7,002 nt of DNA, from the NCBI GenBank assembly GCA_017481185.1, contig JAFUPO010000127.1, positions 1 to 7,002 of the forward strand. The letters run 5' to 3'. The translations under genes were made by a program, and so were the position numbers. Position 1 is the first letter of the stretch. Each line of letters opens with the position of its first letter. The DNA is from Clostridia bacterium. Lineage in GTDB: Bacteria; Bacillota_A; Clostridia; Christensenellales; Aristaeellaceae. The notes beneath the pieces are model-generated. The model ran no database searches. It was not told where the DNA came from and saw only the letters and a program-made list of their open reading frames with translations. Positions 1-6,664 of this stretch are shown here, one piece after another.

Positions 1-395
1 AGGAAGCGGCGTTGGATGCCACCTACGACGACCTGGAAGCAGATCTTCTTCGCAAAATCGAAGGCCTTGAAAAGCAGATCCAGATGCTGTCCGACAAGCG
101 CAACACCATCATTCAGGTGAACCGGACAGCAAAAACCGCCATCGACGTATTCAAGGATATCCTTGAAAAAGAAAAGCTGGATCGCACCGATCTGGAGCTT
201 ATTATCCAGCGCATCCATGTGTATGAGGATCACCTCGAAATCCAGCTTCAAGCCGACATCGACACCCTCATCCGCACGGAAGCCATGGAGGACACCGTAA
301 ATTTTAATCAGGGCATCGAAAATTTGAACTGCCGTATTGTCCAGACGGCCAGGAATCAGAAGGACAAAGTTTTCGATGTCCATGTTATCAGTGAC
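1..395 (+). mobile_element. Right end of an integrative element inserted in spoVT
   Basis: Everything left of about 395 reads as the end of a mobile element: the coding frame is recombinase-like up to roughly 392 and switches at once to SpoVT sequence. The recombinase gene lies at the very edge of the element, pointing at the junction, which is the usual place for the integrase gene of elements moved by large serine recombinases. The rest of the element, its cargo and its other end lie outside the window, so its size and class (conjugative element, prophage or transposon) cannot be told. The exact boundary is inferred from where SpoVT similarity begins, not from seeing both attachment sites. 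Confidence 0.6.
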
Positions 396-860
396 GGCGA
401 CCCGCTGGAAATCTACACCGACCGGGATGGCGAGGTCATCCTGAAGAAGTATTCGCCTATTGGGGAGATGTCTTCCTTCGCGAAAGATTATACGGAATCT
501 CTTTTTCGTTCCCTGGGGCATATTGCCTGCATTGTGGACCGGGATCAGGTGGTGGCGGCCAGCGGCGTGACCAAGAAGGAAATGCTGGACAAGCCCATCT
601 CACACGATCTGGAGACCGCTATCGCCAACCGGCAGACCATTGCCTTGAATCGCAACCTGGGGGGCAAGATGGTTGCTGTGACCTCTGATGAGGACGTCAG
701 CGGCTACACGGCCCAGGTGCTCAGCCCCATCATTGCAGATGGAGAGGCCATTGGCGCGGTGCTGCTTTTGAGCCGCGAGCAGGGCGCCCGCATGGGCGAT
801 ACAGAATTGAAGGTGGCGGAAACCGCCGCAGGCATTGTAGGACGGCAGATGGAGCAATAA
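3..860 (+). CDS. Serine recombinase C-terminus (5' partial) fused in frame to SpoVT C-terminal part
   Basis: The frame is open from the window edge (codons at 3, 6 and 9 before a TTG at 12), so the true start lies upstream; the TTG is probably internal. The first part (12 to about 392, 127 codons) has the charged, helical build of the C-terminal region of large serine recombinases: a coiled-coil-like stretch (LLRKIEGLEKQI) followed by a segment with LELIIQRIHVYEDHLEIQL, which resembles the C-terminal end of clostridial resolvase/invertase-type recombinases. From 396 the protein is SpoVT: GDPLEIYTDRDGEVIL, then the GAF-like domain, ending in ETAAGIVGRQMEQ as SpoVT proteins do. The catalytic serine domain is not in the window. 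The fused product could be a real chimera, or only the reading frame that insertion happens to create. Identification of the SpoVT part is firm; the recombinase part rests on recalled family sequence. Confidence 0.75.
   Translation, partial: EAALDATYDDLEADLLRKIEGLEKQIQMLSDKRNTIIQVNRTAKTAIDVFKDILEKEKLDRTDLELIIQRIHVYEDHLEIQLQADIDTLIRTEAMEDTVNFNQGIENLNCRIVQTARNQKDKVFDVHVISDGDPLEIYTDRDGEVILKKYSPIGEMSSFAKDYTESLFRSLGHIACIVDRDQVVAASGVTKKEMLDKPISHDLETAIANRQTIALNRNLGGKMVAVTSDEDVSGYTAQVLSPIIADGEAIGAVLLLSREQGARMGDTELKVAETAAGIVGRQMEQ
393..413 (+). other. Putative attachment-site junction (attR-like) in spoVT
   Basis: Codons 393-413 read D-G-D-P-L-E-I. In intact SpoVT the same motif follows an Arg-Glu dipeptide about 30 residues from the start, and the residues before it are the highly conserved AbrB-type start of the protein. 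Here the preceding residues (FDVHVIS) do not resemble SpoVT at all, so the crossover should lie within or just before this stretch. Serine recombinases exchange strands at a two-base core; which two bases is not visible without the other end of the element or an empty site. Confidence 0.5.
396..860 (+). pseudogene. spoVT: 3' part of spoVT (stage V sporulation protein T), lacking its start
   Basis: SpoVT is an AbrB-type regulator of about 178-185 residues that acts in the forespore under sigma G and tunes late forespore gene expression. This segment encodes 154 residues, from the GDPLEI motif to the conserved C-terminus MEQ. It holds the end of the AbrB DNA-binding fold and the whole GAF-like sensory domain (SLGHIACIVDRDQVVAASGVTK, then SPIIADGEAIGAVLLLSRE). 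Missing are about 30 N-terminal residues, including the first half of the swapped-hairpin DNA-binding domain, so this half alone should not bind DNA as SpoVT does. The retained part shows no stop or frameshift, which suggests the insertion is recent or that the gene is still rebuilt by excision. The 5' half is expected on the far side of the element, outside the window. Confidence 0.75.
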
Positions 861-886
861 AAAAAGCGGCGCAAAGCCGCTTTTTT
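861..886. terminator. Bidirectional intrinsic terminator
   Basis: Stem GCGGC (866-870) and GCCGC (876-880) around loop GCAAA, flanked by five A on the left and six T on the right, which can extend the stem by A-T pairs. It begins right after the TAA of the spoVT segment and lies five bases beyond the stop of the convergent MalG-like permease gene. Read on + it has a U-tract for spoVT; read on - the A-run supplies a U-tract for the sugar operon. Confidence 0.85.
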
Positions 887-890
887 GCTT

Positions 891-1742
891 TTAACCCTTT
901 ACGCTGCCGGAGGTCAGCCCCTGCACAAAGAAGCGCTGGCAGGTGATGAATACCAGCACCACAGGGAGCAGGGTCAAAACGGACATGGCAAACACATACC
1001 CCCATTGGGTAAACTGGTGCTGGCCGAAGAAGCCAGCGATGGCAATGGGCAGCGTTCGCAGCTGGTTATCGTTAATGACGGTGTTGGCCCAGGGGTATTC
1101 CTCCCAGGCGGTGAGAAAGTTGAAGATGCTCACCGAGGCGATGGCCGGGGCGGCCAGGGGCAGGGCGATGCGGGTGTACACGGTCATCACTCTGGCGCCA
1201 TCGATGTAGGTGGCTTCGGTGATCTCTTCGGGGATGCCTTCCATGAAGCCCTTGATCATAAAGGTGGAAAAGGGGATGACCCAGGCCACATAAAAGGGAA
1301 TCAAGCCCCAGAGCTTGTTCACCAAATTCAGATGGGTGGCCAGCTCAAACTGAGGCACGATCATGGTGGTGCCAGGGATGATCATGGTCAGGATGATAAA
1401 GCCGAAAAGCAGCTTCTTGCCTTTGAAGCGAAACTTGCCCATCACAAAGGCCATGGCGGAGGACACCACCGCAGCCAGAGCAACCGAGGAGAGGGAAACG
1501 AACGCCGAGTTCATAAAGTTCAGGTAGAACTTGCTTTGAGAAAGAATGTACTGATAATTTTCAAGGGTCAGCGCCTCCCACTTGGGAAAGAACCGGGGCG
1601 GATACTCGTACAGCGCCCCGTTGGGCCGCAGGGAGGTGGAGATCATATAGATCATGGGCAGGGTGCAGATCACCGTGCCAAGGGCCAAAGCCAGATACCT
1701 GAAAAGCTTTGCGCGCAGATCGCGCTGTGATTGTTTTTTCAT
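891..1742 (-). CDS. Carbohydrate ABC transporter permease, MalG-like
   Basis: Inner subunit of a CUT1-family sugar importer in the cytoplasmic membrane, pairing with the MalF-like permease encoded just upstream. 283 residues, usual for the family. It starts with a short basic cytoplasmic N-terminus, then about six membrane segments (near 15-35, 78-101, 110-131, 143-164, 198-215 and 247-268). The EAA loop that docks the ATPase is clear at about 173-196 (EITEATYIDGA, then RIALPLAAP), and the tail FFVQGLTSGSVKG is typical of MalG-like proteins. The ATG at 1742 is well supported by AGGAGG (1748-1753), which overlaps the TAG stop of the preceding gene, giving a 9-base gap and likely translational coupling. 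Last gene of the operon; the terminator at 861-886 follows directly. Confidence 0.95.
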   Translation of the reverse strand: MKKQSQRDLRAKLFRYLALALGTVICTLPMIYMISTSLRPNGALYEYPPRFFPKWEALTLENYQYILSQSKFYLNFMNSAFVSLSSVALAAVVSSAMAFVMGKFRFKGKKLLFGFIILTMIIPGTTMIVPQFELATHLNLVNKLWGLIPFYVAWVIPFSTFMIKGFMEGIPEEITEATYIDGARVMTVYTRIALPLAAPAIASVSIFNFLTAWEEYPWANTVINDNQLRTLPIAIAGFFGQHQFTQWGYVFAMSVLTLLPVVLVFITCQRFFVQGLTSGSVKG

Positions 1743-1751
1743 AAGCGCCTC

Positions 1752-2636
1752 CTACGCATCCTTGTTTTTCATGGCCTTGAACTGCAAAATCGCCAGCAGG
1801 CCCAGGCACAGCGCCATCACAAAGGACAGGGCAGCCGCATAGCCAAACTTACCGGTTGAGAAAGCTTTGTAATACATCCAGGTGAGCAGGGTATCCGTCT
1901 GATGGGCAGGCTTGCCGCCGGTGATCATTTTAATGGAAGTAAACACATTAAAACCGCCAATGGTGAGCATGATCAGCGCAAACAGGATGGTACCTTTGAT
2001 GGAGGGCAGGGTAACGCTCACAAACTTTTTCCAGGGGCCGCAGCCGTCGATCTCCGCCGCCTCGTACAAGTCCTGAGGCACCTGCTGCAAAGCGGCCAGG
2101 AACACCACCATATTCCAGCCCACGCCTTTCCAGATGCCCAGGATCATGGCCACGGTCAGGCCGCTCCAGCGAGTATCCAGCCAGCGCACATTAGCCGGCG
2201 TCACCTGAATGATGCGGGTAAGGAAATAGTTGAGCAGCCCTTCGGTATTAAAAATATAGCGAAACACCAGCGAGGCGATTACCCAGGAGGTAATGACCGG
2301 CAGATAGTTAATGACGCGGAAAGTAACGCTCAGGCGTTTGACGCCATTGATGAGCACAGCTGTGAACAAACCCAGAATCATCTGGCCCGGAACGGTGACA
2401 AAGGTGTAGACGATGCTGTTGACAAAAACCGTCCAAAACACATCGTCAGAAAAAACAGCCTGGTAATTGGCAAGGCCGGTAAAGGGCTGATCCAGCATGG
2501 TGGCAAAGCTCCAATCGCAGAATCTCATCCACAAGAGCCGAAAAATGGGATATACGGTGAACATGCCGAAGATGAGCAGCCCCGGCATGATAAGCAGCAA
2601 CAGCTGCAAACGGTTCATGCGGGATTTGAGTACCAA
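1752..2636 (-). CDS. Carbohydrate ABC transporter permease, MalF-like
   Basis: First permease subunit of the CUT1 sugar importer. 294 residues with about six membrane segments (near 10-36, 67-95, 106-128, 160-183, 215-238 and 266-286). The EAA loop is at about 190-211 (DLYEAAEIDGCG, then VTLP), and the TGGKPAHQTDTLLTWMYYKAF stretch before the last segment is typical of MalF-like subunits. The start is a TTG at 2636: AGGAGG (2646-2651) lies nine bases upstream, whereas the first ATG (2618, residue 7) lies 27 bases away and lacks its own site. The TTG could lower translation relative to the binding protein. An 89-base gap with a strong stem-loop separates it from the binding-protein gene. Substrate cannot be read from the sequence; maltodextrin-like sugars are inferred from the GH13 neighbour. 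Confidence 0.95.
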   Translation of the reverse strand: MVLKSRMNRLQLLLLIMPGLLIFGMFTVYPIFRLLWMRFCDWSFATMLDQPFTGLANYQAVFSDDVFWTVFVNSIVYTFVTVPGQMILGLFTAVLINGVKRLSVTFRVINYLPVITSWVIASLVFRYIFNTEGLLNYFLTRIIQVTPANVRWLDTRWSGLTVAMILGIWKGVGWNMVVFLAALQQVPQDLYEAAEIDGCGPWKKFVSVTLPSIKGTILFALIMLTIGGFNVFTSIKMITGGKPAHQTDTLLTWMYYKAFSTGKFGYAAALSFVMALCLGLLAILQFKAMKNKDA

Positions 2637-2645
2637 GGTGGATCG

Positions 2646-2651
2646 CCTCCT
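2646..2651 (-). promoter_or_regulatory. Ribosome binding site deciding the TTG start of the MalF-like gene
   Basis: AGGAGG on the minus strand, nine bases before TTG at 2636. It lies directly after the U-run of the upstream stem-loop, so polymerase pausing there would occur just as this site is transcribed. Confidence 0.75.
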
Positions 2652-2688
2652 AAAAAAAGGCGGCGGGGCGGGCGCGCCCGCCCCGCCG
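2652..2688 (-). terminator. GC-only palindrome plus U-run: attenuating intercistronic stem-loop
   Basis: Positions 2661-2688 form a perfect 28-base palindrome made only of G and C; a realistic hairpin has a 12-pair stem and a GCGC loop. On the minus strand it is followed by CC and seven T (2658-2652). It lies between the stop of the binding-protein gene (2726) and the permease ribosome site (2646-2651). Such structures between binding-protein and permease genes are known, as in malE-malF, to stabilise the upstream message or partly terminate transcription. That gives more binding protein than permease. A complete stop is unlikely because the permease genes have no other obvious promoter. Confidence 0.7.
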
Positions 2689-2725
2689 AAGTGGTTGACT
2701 TTCCCAAGGGGGTCAGGTAAGATAG

Positions 2726-3975
2726 TTACTTGAGCAACGCATCAAACTTGACGGCCAATTCATCCATGGCTTCCTGGGCGGTCTTTTCACCGTTGACCAC
2801 TGCGGTCATGGCCATGGTCAGCTCATTATCCATTTCGGTCCAGGCCGCCACAGTGGGCCGGGCCTTGGCCGTCTGGATGGCCTCAATGAAGGGCGCATAA
2901 GAAGCGTTCTTCACGGTGTCGCTTTCCAGCGCCGCCTTGTTCACGGGGATCTGGCCGCACTTGGCCATTTCGGTCTGCGCAAATTCACCGGTCATGAACT
3001 GGATGAACTTCCAGGCAGCTTCCTTATTGGCATTGGTGAACATGGCAATGTCTTCGCCGCCCAGAACGGAAATGCTGCCGCCCGGGCCTGCGGGCATGGA
3101 CGCGGTGCCGTAAGCCACATCAGGATAAGCGCCTTCCAGTTCGGCGGTCTTCCAGGGGCCTTCCAGCATCATGGCATAGCGGCCGGTGCCGAAGCCGTCG
3201 GTCATGGGGATATCGCCGCTATTGAAGCCGGTGAGGGCGTTTTCCTTTACCAGCTGGGCAAAGGTCTCCACAGCCTTCACGGTGGCTTCGGAGTTCACAT
3301 AGCCGGTAGCCACGGTCTGCTCCTCATTGGTCAGGCTGCCGCCAAAGGTCCAGATGAAGGGGCAGATGTTCCAGCCGGACAGGGCGGGTTCATTCCAGCC
3401 CCACACCTGCTGCCCGTTGGTGTTGGTGCCGGAAAGGGCGCGCACAGCTGCCACCCACTCGTCGGTGGTGGTGGGCACCTTCACGCCGGCAGCTTCCAGC
3501 ATGGCCACGTTGTAGAACAGGATCTTGCTGTTGGTGTTCAGGGGCAGGGCATAGGTGCCGCCGCCGATCTTGGCAGTGGACAGTGCGCTTTCCAGCAGCT
3601 TTGCGGATACTTCATTGAAGTCAGCCATTTCCTGATCCAGAGCCACCAGCACGCCCATCTGCTGGAACTCAGGCAGCCAGGCAATATCGCAGCGGGCCAC
3701 ATCGGGCAGCATCTTGGTTGAGGTGCTGACAAGGATCTTGTCATGCAGTTCAGCCCATTCATGGGAAACGGCGTTAACCTTGATCCCGGGGTTCTCGCTC
3801 TCAAACTTGGGAATGAGCACGTTCATCAGCGTCTCATTTTCAGCCGACTGCGCACTGTAGTGGTGCCAGAAGTTGAGGGTCACAGGGGTTTCTGACGATT
3901 CTGCCAGGGCCGGTAAAGCCGCCAAGCAAAGCACCGCGCTGAGCAGGATCGCCAGAATTTTTTCATGGTCTTCAT
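2726..3975 (-). CDS. Extracellular sugar-binding protein (family 1), with apparent one-base frameshift at its start
   Basis: Binds sugar outside the membrane and delivers it to the two permeases. The open frame covers 402 residues from a GTG at 3934. After the signal peptide it begins VTLNFWHHYSAQ and shows LIPKFESENPGIKVNAV, LPDVARCDIAWLPEF and GRYAMMLEGPWKTAELE, all typical of family 1 solute-binding proteins. The true start is almost certainly ATG at 3975: AGGAGG lies seven bases upstream and the ATG overlaps the TGA of the GH13 gene (ATGA). From that ATG the sequence as given codes only 31 residues before TGA at 3882-3880. One extra A in the A6 run (3958-3963) would give MKTMKKILAILLSAVLCLAA, a textbook signal peptide, and a 416-residue protein. 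Cleavage is expected after Ala-Leu-Ala. No convincing lipobox is seen. Sequencing error, phase variation or a real lesion are all possible. Confidence 0.9.
3958..3963 (-). other. A6 homopolymer where the reading frame breaks
   Basis: On the minus strand the start reads ATGAAAAAATTCTGGCG. Six A place the ATG out of frame with the hydrophobic signal sequence; seven A would join them exactly. The downstream frame otherwise shows no defect. Confidence 0.75.
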
Positions 3976-5663
3976 GGGGTATCCTCCTTTTTAAGATTGA
4001 TGATCTTAACGGCTCGGGCCGGAACTGTTACGCTTCCCTCCGCCTGAGCCGCGAAGTCCTGAGGGGTATCGCCGGTATTGAACACAGCGATCACTTTTTC
4101 TGTATTCAAAGCTCTTTCAAAAGCAAAGAGCTTTTTTTGTTTATCCGCGCACCTTATGCGCAGGCTGCCTTCACAAACAGCGGGATGCTCGTGCCGAAAC
4201 CGAATGAGATCCTCCGTCCATTGGCGCAGCTCCTCATCCATCCGCTCCCAGGCCATGCCTGCCCGGCAGTCGGGGTCGTTTTCCCCTTCCATGCCGATCT
4301 CCTCGCCGTAGTACACCGCCGGGCTGCCGGGGAAAAGCATCTGGAAGGCCACCGCCAGCTTCAATCGCCATTTTTCTCCTCCTGCCAGGGTCAAAAACCG
4401 GGGCGTATCATGGGAGGACAGGCAATTGTACATCCCATGAAGGATCTCGTCAGGGTACTTCATGCGCATCCGTTCCAGCCGGTGAAGAAGCGCTTCCTCG
4501 TCGATCATGCCTCGGGCGAAGTAGTCCACCATGGCATCCCTGAACAGATAGTTCATCGCCGTGTGGCACTGGTCGTTGCCCAACAGCATCCGGGAGGCGT
4601 CTGACCAGGTTTCGCCCAGCAGAAGCGCCTGGGGGTATTCTCGGCAAAGCTCCCTGCGCAGATACTGCAAGCAGTCGGTGTCCAGCTCGTCTGCCACATC
4701 CAGCCGCCAGCCATCGATGCCAGTGCGCTGAATCCAGTAGCGCATTACGGAAAGGATAAACTTTTGAACCTGGATATCCCCAGTGTTCAGCCGGGGCATA
4801 TAGGGATAATCGCCCACGCACTCATAGCAGCTTTCGTGGATCTCGATGGGAAATTTCTTAGGATGGAACCAGTGAACATAGGCTGATTCTTCACCCTTCT
4901 CCACCAGGTCTCGAAAGGGAGCAAAGTGTATGCCGCAGTGATTGAATACGCCATCCAACACAACGCGGATGCCCCGCTCATGGGCCTGGCTGACCAGCCT
5001 CTTTAAATCCTCTTCGCTGCCAAAGTCCGGATCGATCCTGAAATAATCGGTGGTGGCGTATTTGTGATTGAAGTCAGCCTCAAAGATCGGATTCAGGTAG
5101 AGGCAGTCAACGCCCAGCTTTTGCAGGTAGCCCAGCTTTTGCAGGATGCCCGGCAGATCGCCGCCCAGATAGTTTTCACGGGTGGGGAGCGCATCCCATT
5201 TCTCTAGGGGATGAGATTTGGGCAACCCCTCGCTCCGGAAAAACCGTTCGGGAAAGATCTGATAATACACAGCGCCCCGGGCCCAGGCAGGGGGCGCAAT
5301 GACGTCCGCCCCATTGGCCTGCAAAAGCTCAAAGTATCCTGCGGTGGGTTCCCCCACGGTGAGGCCATATTCCGAATAACAGGCCTGGCAGCCATCCCGG
5401 CCGGCGAGGCGAAAGAAGTATTTGATGTAATGCACTTCCTCCGCAAAGGCTATTTCAGCGACCCATTCCTCGCTCTGCCCATCCCGGGCCCGGGGCTGCA
5501 TCGCCGCCTCAAAGCGTTTTTCCGGCTCGGACCTTTTCCAGTAGATGATGCGGCAGCAGGCCAAATCATCGCAGGCCGCAAGAAGGCGAAAACGCATTTT
5601 GCATCGTGCAAGCGGTTGCCTAAATGGCAAAAAAGATTCATGGCGTATAGCGCCAATGTTCAT
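3972..5663 (-). CDS. GH13 alpha-amylase family enzyme, neopullulanase/cyclomaltodextrinase-like
   Basis: Hydrolyses alpha-1,4 (possibly some alpha-1,6) bonds in imported maltodextrins, cyclodextrins or pullulan fragments. No signal peptide, so cytoplasmic. Counted from the ATG at 5663 it has 563 residues. An N-terminal beta domain resembling CBM34 (about 1-115) comes first, then the catalytic barrel opening with GAVYYQIFPERF. The conserved regions are complete: DGVFNHCG (Asp237, His242), MPRLN (289-293, the MPKLN-type signature of this subgroup), GWRLDVADE with nucleophile Asp322, GETW with acid/base Glu351, and SSHDTPR with His418-Asp419. A small C-terminal beta domain follows. A GTG at 5672 would overlap the regulator's stop codon (GTGA) and add three residues, but AGGA at 5674-5677 suits the ATG better, and MNIGAIRHES aligns with typical family starts. 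Its own stop overlaps the next gene's start. Exact substrate is not decidable here. Confidence 0.93.
   Translation of the reverse strand: MNIGAIRHESFLPFRQPLARCKMRFRLLAACDDLACCRIIYWKRSEPEKRFEAAMQPRARDGQSEEWVAEIAFAEEVHYIKYFFRLAGRDGCQACYSEYGLTVGEPTAGYFELLQANGADVIAPPAWARGAVYYQIFPERFFRSEGLPKSHPLEKWDALPTRENYLGGDLPGILQKLGYLQKLGVDCLYLNPIFEADFNHKYATTDYFRIDPDFGSEEDLKRLVSQAHERGIRVVLDGVFNHCGIHFAPFRDLVEKGEESAYVHWFHPKKFPIEIHESCYECVGDYPYMPRLNTGDIQVQKFILSVMRYWIQRTGIDGWRLDVADELDTDCLQYLRRELCREYPQALLLGETWSDASRMLLGNDQCHTAMNYLFRDAMVDYFARGMIDEEALLHRLERMRMKYPDEILHGMYNCLSSHDTPRFLTLAGGEKWRLKLAVAFQMLFPGSPAVYYGEEIGMEGENDPDCRAGMAWERMDEELRQWTEDLIRFRHEHPAVCEGSLRIRCADKQKKLFAFERALNTEKVIAVFNTGDTPQDFAAQAEGSVTVPARAVKIINLKKEDTP
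3983..3990 (-). promoter_or_regulatory. Ribosome binding site deciding the start of the binding-protein gene
   Basis: AAAGGAGG on the minus strand, seven bases before ATG at 3975, located inside the last codons of the GH13 gene (Lys-Lys-Glu-Asp). It shows that translation should begin at 3975 or at the ATG three codons later (3966), both out of frame with the main open frame, and not at the GTG at 3934. Confidence 0.85.
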
Positions 5664-5668
5664 AATCT

Positions 5669-6664
5669 TCACATCCTATGACTTGATTCGCGCTCGATCA
5701 GTGTGGTGCCCAAAAGCACCTGCTGACAGGGCGTTTGATGATCGATATGCTGGAACAAGAGCCTGGCGGCCTGCTCGCCCAGAAGGGCGGTATCCACATC
5801 CACCGAGCTCAGGGGCGGATCGGTAAACTCCGCCAGAGGATAATTATCAAAAGTGACCACGCTTACCTGCCCGGGCACGGAAAGCCCCACCTCGCGGCAG
5901 GCCCGAAGCAGGCCAAAGGCTGTCATATTATCGTTGCACAAAAAGGCGTCAGGCCGGTTTTCGCCCTTAAGCACTTCAAGGGCGATTCGCTGGGCTCCTT
6001 CCACCGTACCATCGGTGGGAAAGATCAAAGCTTCCTGCTTTTCAATGGCTTTTTCATAGCCCTTAACCCGGCGCTTGGAAAAACCGGTACGGCCTTCGCC
6101 CCCCAGATACGCCACGCGGCGGCATCCCTTTTCCGTCAAATGGCGCACGGACATTTCAGCGCCTTGGGTATTGTTCACATCCACCCAGTTCAAATCGTGA
6201 TGGGCAGCCTCCGGCTGGCCCAGCACCACACAGGGAAAGGACTGAATCTTTTTCATAAGCGAGGGCTTCACCGTTGAAGGGGGCAGAATCAACCCATCCA
6301 CCTTGCGCTCCAGCATCAGTTTTTCAATGCTGTTCATGCCTCCGGCCCGCTTGGCGCCGTTGGCCAGAATCACATGATAGCCCCTCTCCTGGGCGACTTT
6401 TTCAATAGCGAACAGGCTGCGGTTGAAAAACACGTTGCTGAATGCCTCTGCATCCTGAGCGTCCACCACCACGCCGATGGCGCCGCTCTGACCGTTGGCC
6501 AGGCTGCGGGCCAGGCTGTTGGGATGATAATCCAATTGGCGCATCGCTGCATAAATTTTTTCCCTGGTTTCTTCCATTACGCTGGCTTTGCCGTTGATCA
6601 CACGGCTTACCGTGGAAGAATTTACCCCTGCCAGTTTGGCAACGTCGTGGATGGTCGAGGCCAT
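5669..6664 (-). CDS. LacI-family transcriptional regulator
   Basis: DNA-binding regulator, usually a repressor released by a sugar. 331 residues, normal for the family. The N-terminal helix-turn-helix (IHDVAKLAGVNSSTVSRVIN, about 5-24) is followed by the hinge helix (HPNSLARSLANG, 47-58). The sugar-binding domain runs from about 61 to the end, with GAIGVVV, ADGLILP-like KVDGLILPPS, VAYLGGEGRT, RPDAFLCNDNMTAFGLL, VSVVTFDN and the closing TLIERESS. The ATG at 6664 has AGGAGG (6671-6676) six bases upstream. It is the first gene of the operon, five bases before the GH13 start, so it probably controls its own promoter and the whole sugar unit. MalR-like function is inferred from neighbours; the inducer is unknown. 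Confidence 0.95.
   Translation of the reverse strand: MASTIHDVAKLAGVNSSTVSRVINGKASVMEETREKIYAAMRQLDYHPNSLARSLANGQSGAIGVVVDAQDAEAFSNVFFNRSLFAIEKVAQERGYHVILANGAKRAGGMNSIEKLMLERKVDGLILPPSTVKPSLMKKIQSFPCVVLGQPEAAHHDLNWVDVNNTQGAEMSVRHLTEKGCRRVAYLGGEGRTGFSKRRVKGYEKAIEKQEALIFPTDGTVEGAQRIALEVLKGENRPDAFLCNDNMTAFGLLRACREVGLSVPGQVSVVTFDNYPLAEFTDPPLSSVDVDTALLGEQAARLLFQHIDHQTPCQQVLLGTTLIERESSHRM

Follow-up and report, generated by a model that had tools for sequence, protein, structure and literature searches.

A predicted family of mobile serine recombinase elements that land in the sporulation gene spoVT of gut Clostridia

The sporulation genes sigK, spsM, spoVFB, gerE and yabG act in the mother cell, and to our knowledge all intervening elements known from sporulation genes lie in genes of this compartment. 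Since the mother cell dies, the germ line is safe with these elements. Those in print, as given in the accessible part of PMC10747680, are skin (in sigK), SPbeta (spsM), vfbin (spoVFB), the gerE element and yin (yabG). In C. difficile, according to the available text of PMC5025042, the mother cell showed skin excision, and the forespore and growing cells did not. The gene considered here, spoVT, is under the control of sigma F and sigma G in C. difficile, where no heat-resistant spores were obtained from a mutant in this gene (both from the available portion of PMC3789822).

Integrases supply the other terms of comparison. Mycobacteriophage BPs and its relatives reportedly carry attP in the phage repressor gene, whose product thereby receives a different C-terminus upon integration. 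A review states, in its accessible text, that integrases disrupting their own gene occur only in archaea (PMC8371274), and engineered directionality-factor fusions described in the available part of PMC5737554 indicate that fusing a domain to a serine integrase can alter the direction in which the enzyme works. In the literature searched (subscription papers and preprints were outside its scope) no paper was found with both 'spoVT' and 'serine recombinase', and papers pairing spoVT with integrase, or with recombinase and sporulation, included by their titles none on the arrangement reported here. We regard the spoVT element family as real, widespread and, as far as the searched literature goes, undescribed.

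The window (the whole stretch of DNA analysed, 7,002 nucleotides) opens with a single frame, 3-860, that runs from the left edge to the spoVT stop at 860. An earlier note on this DNA had described spoVT as beginning abruptly at Gly-Asp-Pro and joined to recombinase sequence near 395. That description holds, with the junction placed exactly at 395/396, where the arm GTTATCAGTGAC (from 384) is followed by the core GGCGACCC at 396-403. Residues 129-284 of the fusion matched the spore_V_T model (TIGR02851) with E 1.9e-55; the match starts at model position 27 and reaches the end of the model, and positions 1-26 have no counterpart in the frame. PF15714 (SpoVT_C) matched with E 1.3e-43, and the SpoVT part aligned with the solved SpoVT 2w1t starting at residue 28. 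Domain search of the window itself gave no recombinase domain in the upstream part of the frame. This part was recognized as recombinase via longer relatives, namely P0002, which is 92% identical across the entire 285-residue query and has a recombinase zinc ribbon, and L001, where Resolvase, Recombinase, Zn_ribbon and SpoVT_C domains lie within one 724-residue frame and the DNA is 86% identical to window positions 1-860. The features are as follows.

3..395, + strand: 3' part of a large serine recombinase gene, forming the right end of the element; in frame with spoVT and extending past the left edge of the window (P0002, 92%; L001, 86% DNA identity)
365..395, + strand: element half of attR, one attP arm including GTTATCAGTGAC at 384-395; the arm is common to relatives, with its inverted-repeat partner at the left end of the relatives' elements
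396..403, + strand: attachment-site core GGCGACCC, Gly-Asp-Pro codons, with the crossover inside GACCC at 399-403 (attL versus attR in 36 genomes with both)
396..860, + strand: spoVT 3' part, codon 31 to the stop, with the C-terminal GAF-like sensor domain (TIGR02851, PF15714, 2w1t; intact P0027 differs at 1 of 154 residues)
861..887, + strand: probable terminator hairpin and T run after spoVT (by eye)

The window contains the right end (attR) of a predicted mobile element inserted in spoVT. Farther downstream, on the minus strand at 891-6664, sugar ABC transporter permeases and a binding protein were noted by eye, and also an alpha-amylase-like enzyme and a LacI-type regulator.

A scan of genomes of 84,980 prokaryote species, in which the query alignment covered recombinase ends and stopped short of the SpoVT part, gave 201 relatives, and the best 80 loci among them were analysed. 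In 78 of these 80, SpoVT-C followed the recombinase in frame at the same Gly-Asp-Pro; in the remaining two (L031 and L037) the recombinase ended at a contig edge. In a protein search with the fusion, 56 of the 120 matches listed were fusions at the same Gly-Asp-Pro, and P0084, also among these 120, was an intact SpoVT. By record titles, the carriers are gut Clostridia that include Agathobaculum butyriciproducens, Butyricicoccus pullicaecorum, Pseudoflavonifractor capillosus, Flavonifractor and Oscillibacter valericigenes; two cultivated carriers are A. butyriciproducens DSM 100391 and B. pullicaecorum DSM 23266 (loci L035 and L049). The same in-frame junction at 78 of 80 loci reached from a recombinase-only query is beyond chance and argues that it is no chimera. 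It shows that, in many gut Clostridia, a family of predicted large serine recombinases usually lands at codons 31-33 of spoVT (Gly-Asp-Pro). The earlier note, which proposed a serine-recombinase element as the cause of the split, is borne out, and the element is site-specific.

The window begins to the right of the expected 5' half of spoVT, and this half was sought in 40 carrier genomes, mostly draft MAGs, by a search with intact SpoVT. A full-length match was found in none of the 40, a C-part in a frame of 718-804 aa in all of them, and an N-part (a match ending at codons 33-42) in 36. In 19 of the 36 genomes having an N-part, it lay upstream of the C-part on one contig and strand. Among 34 further genomes, taken mostly for low SpoVT scores, 33 were non-intact for spoVT and one (G387) was intact; fused-size frames (716-818) were present in 27 of the 33, and both parts shared a single contig and strand in eight, for example on contigs of 2.9, 4.3 and 4.0 Mb in G408, G358 and G075, respectively. 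The spacing between the parts gave elements from about 7 kb (G011) to about 81 kb (G031). In relatives, the first 30 codons of spoVT and the second attachment site, both postulated earlier to the left of the window, are present; an intact second spoVT with no 5' half, which would have pointed away from a split gene, is not their arrangement. In one genome, G036 (L071, L092, L144; 37 kb contig), the C-part is upstream of the N-part on the same strand, in a contig that is either rearranged or chimeric.

When the halves were joined in a script, a complete SpoVT with a start codon was obtained in 38 of 39 genomes, the sole failure being G030 with a broken 5' end. That exact removal would rebuild spoVT, as had been suggested earlier, is supported by this in silico result. 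The empty-site comparison agrees with it, since intact alleles are nearly identical to fused ones. The intact P0027 differs from the window at one of 154 residues, and the fused P0013 at two; in Agathobaculum DSM 100391 the intact P0232 differs at one of 150 C-part residues and the fused P0239 at none. Intact and fused alleles therefore seem to coexist within what looks like one species, both for the window's species and for Agathobaculum DSM 100391.

What the spoVT element has in common with skin, SPbeta, vfbin, the gerE element and yin (as described in the accessible part of PMC10747680) is a serine-recombinase element in a sporulation gene whose exact removal restores the frame, here in silico. 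Site-specific insertion within such a gene, the mark of skin-type elements, is found at 78 of 80 loci, and the N-part in 36 of 40 genomes. Unlike them, the spoVT element hits a regulator of the forespore (by its role in C. difficile), is probably of mobilization type and not prophage-like, and has its recombinase fused in frame to a host protein.

The left end of the element adds a feature that goes beyond the earlier note. The SpoVT N-part does not stop at Gly-Asp-Pro; in most elements it reads on for about 24 residues with the pattern S-Q-x-T-x-x-x-W-E-x-F-C-F-x-M-L-D-L-A-K-R-x-G-W. Since the frame of this tail is the frame of the recombinase across the element, the recombinase of the circular form would end in the tail, with attP about 24 codons before its stop. 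A predicted attP within the recombinase's own 3' coding end means that integration trades C-termini in frame. The two junctions show the predicted exchange, in which recombinase-tail plus SpoVT gives recombinase-SpoVT-C plus SpoVT-N-tail, and by which the integrated recombinase loses the conserved tail of about 24 residues and gains the SpoVT sensor domain.

The attP arms flanking the core are inverted repeats, with a mean of 14.9 of 20 positions matching in 35 elements (shuffled control: mean 8.2, maximum 14 of 20). A comparison of attL with attR in 36 genomes narrows the crossover down to GACCC through the third positions of the Gly and Pro codons. In 38 elements the pN/pS of tail codons was 1.06 inside the attP arm and 0.33 beyond it; these are plain means of all pairwise values, with neither multiple hits nor kinship taken into account. 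The constraint beyond the arm and none within it suggest that the tail is kept as protein.

The native tail was looked for by searching 5.8 billion proteins with recombinase ends bearing the predicted tail. This gave 717 matches, and the best 120 of the 717 were examined, 111 of them being new. Of these 111 proteins, 50 were SpoVT-fused, three (P0123, P0135 and P0183) had the predicted native tail at the C-terminus, and 58 had neither; many of the 58 stop just before or after the junction, some have other ends, and P0227, P0228 and P0144 look like tail variants. The three tailed proteins indicate, at the protein level, that the native form exists. They could be elements at other sites, and P0123, given its unrelated N-terminal domain, may be a chimeric assembly. 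No attP junction was found in 41 split-genome assemblies at up to three mismatches, and no circle was seen as DNA.

The integrated recombinase keeps every catalytic domain in a single frame, whose length is about 714-818 aa in complete cases. The large serine recombinase domain set is found in L001, the window covering the C-terminal end only. The catalytic serine motif Y-x-R-I-S is invariant, and A-G-Y-x-R-I-S is present in all 26 fusions compared. Modelling the structure of the L001 fusion from its sequence alone yielded nothing usable (pLDDT 38). With 26 sequences the overall pLDDT was 57; the SpoVT sensor part, at about 591-724, was confident (block means 61-87), and the preceding stretch, 529-589, was of low confidence.

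By sequence the recombinase matches solved SprA (9dxh, 9dxd) and TnpX (2mhc). It has the same domains, Y-x-R-I-S motif and inverted-repeat attP arms as TnpX and the SPbeta integrase SprA/YokA, but here attP lies inside the recombinase coding end and the C-terminus would depend on the integration state. In the BPs type of integration-dependent immunity the gene concerned is said to be the repressor, whereas here it is the recombinase, with a host sporulation regulator as partner. The archaeal suicidal integrases of the SSV type likewise have the target site in the integrase's own gene (PMC8371274, accessible text). Those enzymes belong to the tyrosine recombinases, and integration breaks their gene, while the serine recombinase of the spoVT element stays in one frame and trades only its tail; unlike integrases broken by integration, this bacterial enzyme emerges with a new tail. 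Engineered fusions of integrase and directionality factor are laboratory constructs that use the cognate factor. In the spoVT element the fusion is natural, to a host sensor domain, and any effect of it is putative.

For 69 fusions, recombinase distances and SpoVT-C distances were uncorrelated (Spearman 0.02, FastTree). For example, L021 and L029 are separated by 0.065 in the recombinase and by 2.05 in SpoVT-C. This indicates that the elements move horizontally and that the fusions are made anew by integration; the simple, single inactivation offered earlier as one option gives way to a family of elements that insert repeatedly and move horizontally. That recombinase and host are inherited together, considered as a sign of long selection on the split gene, was rejected on the same result. 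For this reason also the pN/pS of 0.10 in the SpoVT N-part, likewise an uncorrected pairwise mean, says little about the split state, and since the insertions look recent, an intact N-part is no proof of continued use of the split gene. Taken jointly, the structural and mobility claims (landing site, exchange of C-termini, an element between the parts, horizontal movement) are in our judgement highly probable.

The recombinase family was present in 35 of 250 genomes of one family: 32 with fused-size frames, one inverted (G494), and two with other ends and an intact spoVT (G312 and G298). In the same 250 genomes, a SpoVT match was found in 197, and at least 38 of the 197 were non-intact, a count that leaves out nine genomes with best E from 1.6e-43 to 1.2e-39. 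The 38 comprise 32 fused, one inverted, two other insertions (G429 and G423) and three at a contig edge (G491, G436 and G399). In another order (248 genomes) SpoVT matched in 154, with the fused type in at least seven among those listed.

Within 10 kb upstream of the recombinase, relaxase clusters were found in 13 and in 6 of 77 loci and NikA/MobC-like proteins in 9 of 77, while RhuM-like and primase-like genes recur beside the recombinase. By eye, the contents of the elements vary, with modification-like genes, an ABC transporter and defence-like genes. Two scans of a viral contig collection gave no relatives. The recurrent relaxase and mobilization genes, together with the lack of viral relatives, make an integrative mobilizable or conjugative element the likelier prediction than a prophage.

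At 58 of 77 loci (e.g., L030, L022 and L045) the recombinase is preceded by a conserved protein of about 87 residues (EVNVRDDKKLVEVWLTNAEKNDP...), at 35 of them within 400 bp. This protein has no meaningful match in Pfam or NCBIfam; from its position alone it is a candidate directionality factor. At the left end, no gene was common to more than 5 of the 37 stretches examined (one genome is included twice and three stretches are short). The sole cluster above five genomes was the antisense frame of the junction itself, and the next, a protein of about 80 residues, was present in five. A directionality factor driven by the spoVT promoter, for which a shared left-end gene was sought, was thus not found in the left ends examined.

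Besides the usual fusion, we observed variant arrangements at the site. In G494 (L133/L134/L179) the element is inverted, and the recombinase frame enters the antisense of the spoVT N-part; P0180 and P0171 resemble this insertion. The same spoVT site accepts both orientations. In G429 (L137/L138) a related serine recombinase of 542 residues, with its own stop, sits unfused at the same codons, and in G423 (L135/L136) spoVT is split at these codons with no recombinase adjoining either junction. These variants make the site a hotspot, for which fusion to SpoVT-C is usual and not needed. The right-hand neighbour in G423 has thiamine-like genes (by eye).

Because the element interrupts the AbrB-type DNA-binding domain, SpoVT activity would be expected from neither half. 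SpoVT would be off while the element is in and on again after exact excision. The recombinase with its own tail would be the integrating form, and an integrated cell could make only the recombinase carrying SpoVT-C, which would then have to carry out excision if there is any. That at least some sporulating cells excise the element is plausible, with odds that we put a little below even. If excision is timed to sporulation, it would have to occur in the forespore lineage, unlike that of skin; the earlier note was right to see a forespore gene as a different problem, given the control of C. difficile spoVT by sigma F and sigma G (PMC3789822, available portion).

A more specific version, which we consider improbable, is that the swap of C-termini is itself the switch: the native tail integrates, the SpoVT sensor makes excision answer a forespore signal, and the circle rides in the spore and re-enters spoVT on outgrowth. 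A circle in a dormant spore would not be diluted by division, and the rearrangement would take place in the germ line and not in a dying cell. An effect of the exchanged C-terminus is conceivable, because fusion of a directionality factor changes integrase direction (PMC5737554, in its available part). Excision in the mother cell only, with SpoVT used there in these hosts, would follow the known intervening elements (the accessible parts of PMC5025042 and PMC10747680). It is set against the role of SpoVT as a forespore regulator in C. difficile (PMC3789822, as available) and no sign here of another compartment; restriction to the mother cell is accordingly unlikely, and we give this skin-like switch little credence. 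Least of all, a reading with hardly any probability left, do we see an assembly chimera or a one-off fusion lacking biological meaning. The left flank of the window is unseen, but the junction recurs at 78 of 80 loci and on contigs of 2.9-4.3 Mb, and the near-identical recombinases of L021 and L029 are joined to very different SpoVT-C parts. For the family, the chimera reading, which had been raised along with the split itself, is already refuted.

Purely parasitic insertion is a serious possibility, though we stop short of favouring it. The gene spoVT would be just a landing site, carriers could not finish spores, spread would be horizontal during growth, and excision would be rare and independent of sporulation. 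The uncorrelated distances, and hence recent and repeated insertions, agree with this, as do the varying contents with relaxase and mobilization genes, the lack of a shared left-end regulator, the lack of an assembled circle in 41 genomes, and the tolerance of inverted insertions. On the other hand, spoIVA is about equally kept, in 37 of 40 split and 38 of 40 intact genomes (the intact set from one family, the split set from several, unmatched by lineage), so the split genomes do not look like lineages losing sporulation, although a recent insertion would look alike. Furthermore, 38 of 39 N-parts rejoin to a full gene; a non-intact share of at least 38 of 197 is high for a spore-lethal insertion where sporulation genes are kept; and other sporulation genes carry serine-recombinase elements for which excision is known (PMC10747680, accessible part).

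In one gut family, a considerable minority of the genomes sampled (at least 38 of 197 with SpoVT) have a split version of a gene whose role in C. difficile is in the forespore. There is either a cycle of jumping out and in through the spore or a common mobile element that repeatedly switches off gut sporulation, and both bear on the passage of gut Clostridia between hosts. Serine integrases are widely used tools, and these elements, by swapping C-termini in frame, offer a natural experiment on how the direction of such enzymes is determined. For annotation, the recombinase-SpoVT proteins in databases are to be read as integration products, and calls of 'spoVT absent or truncated' in carrier genomes may mislead.

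The recombinase family is also seen with ends other than SpoVT. In G312 and G298, which carry it with other C-termini, spoVT is intact, and C-termini such as GDASTEYWTRR suggest other landing sites. Several close relatives (P0129, P0130, P0134, P0139, P0188, P0191-P0194 and P0205) end in ...SGDASTEYWTRRK and not in SpoVT, which probably marks another landing site; some of them are on contigs longer than 230 kb.
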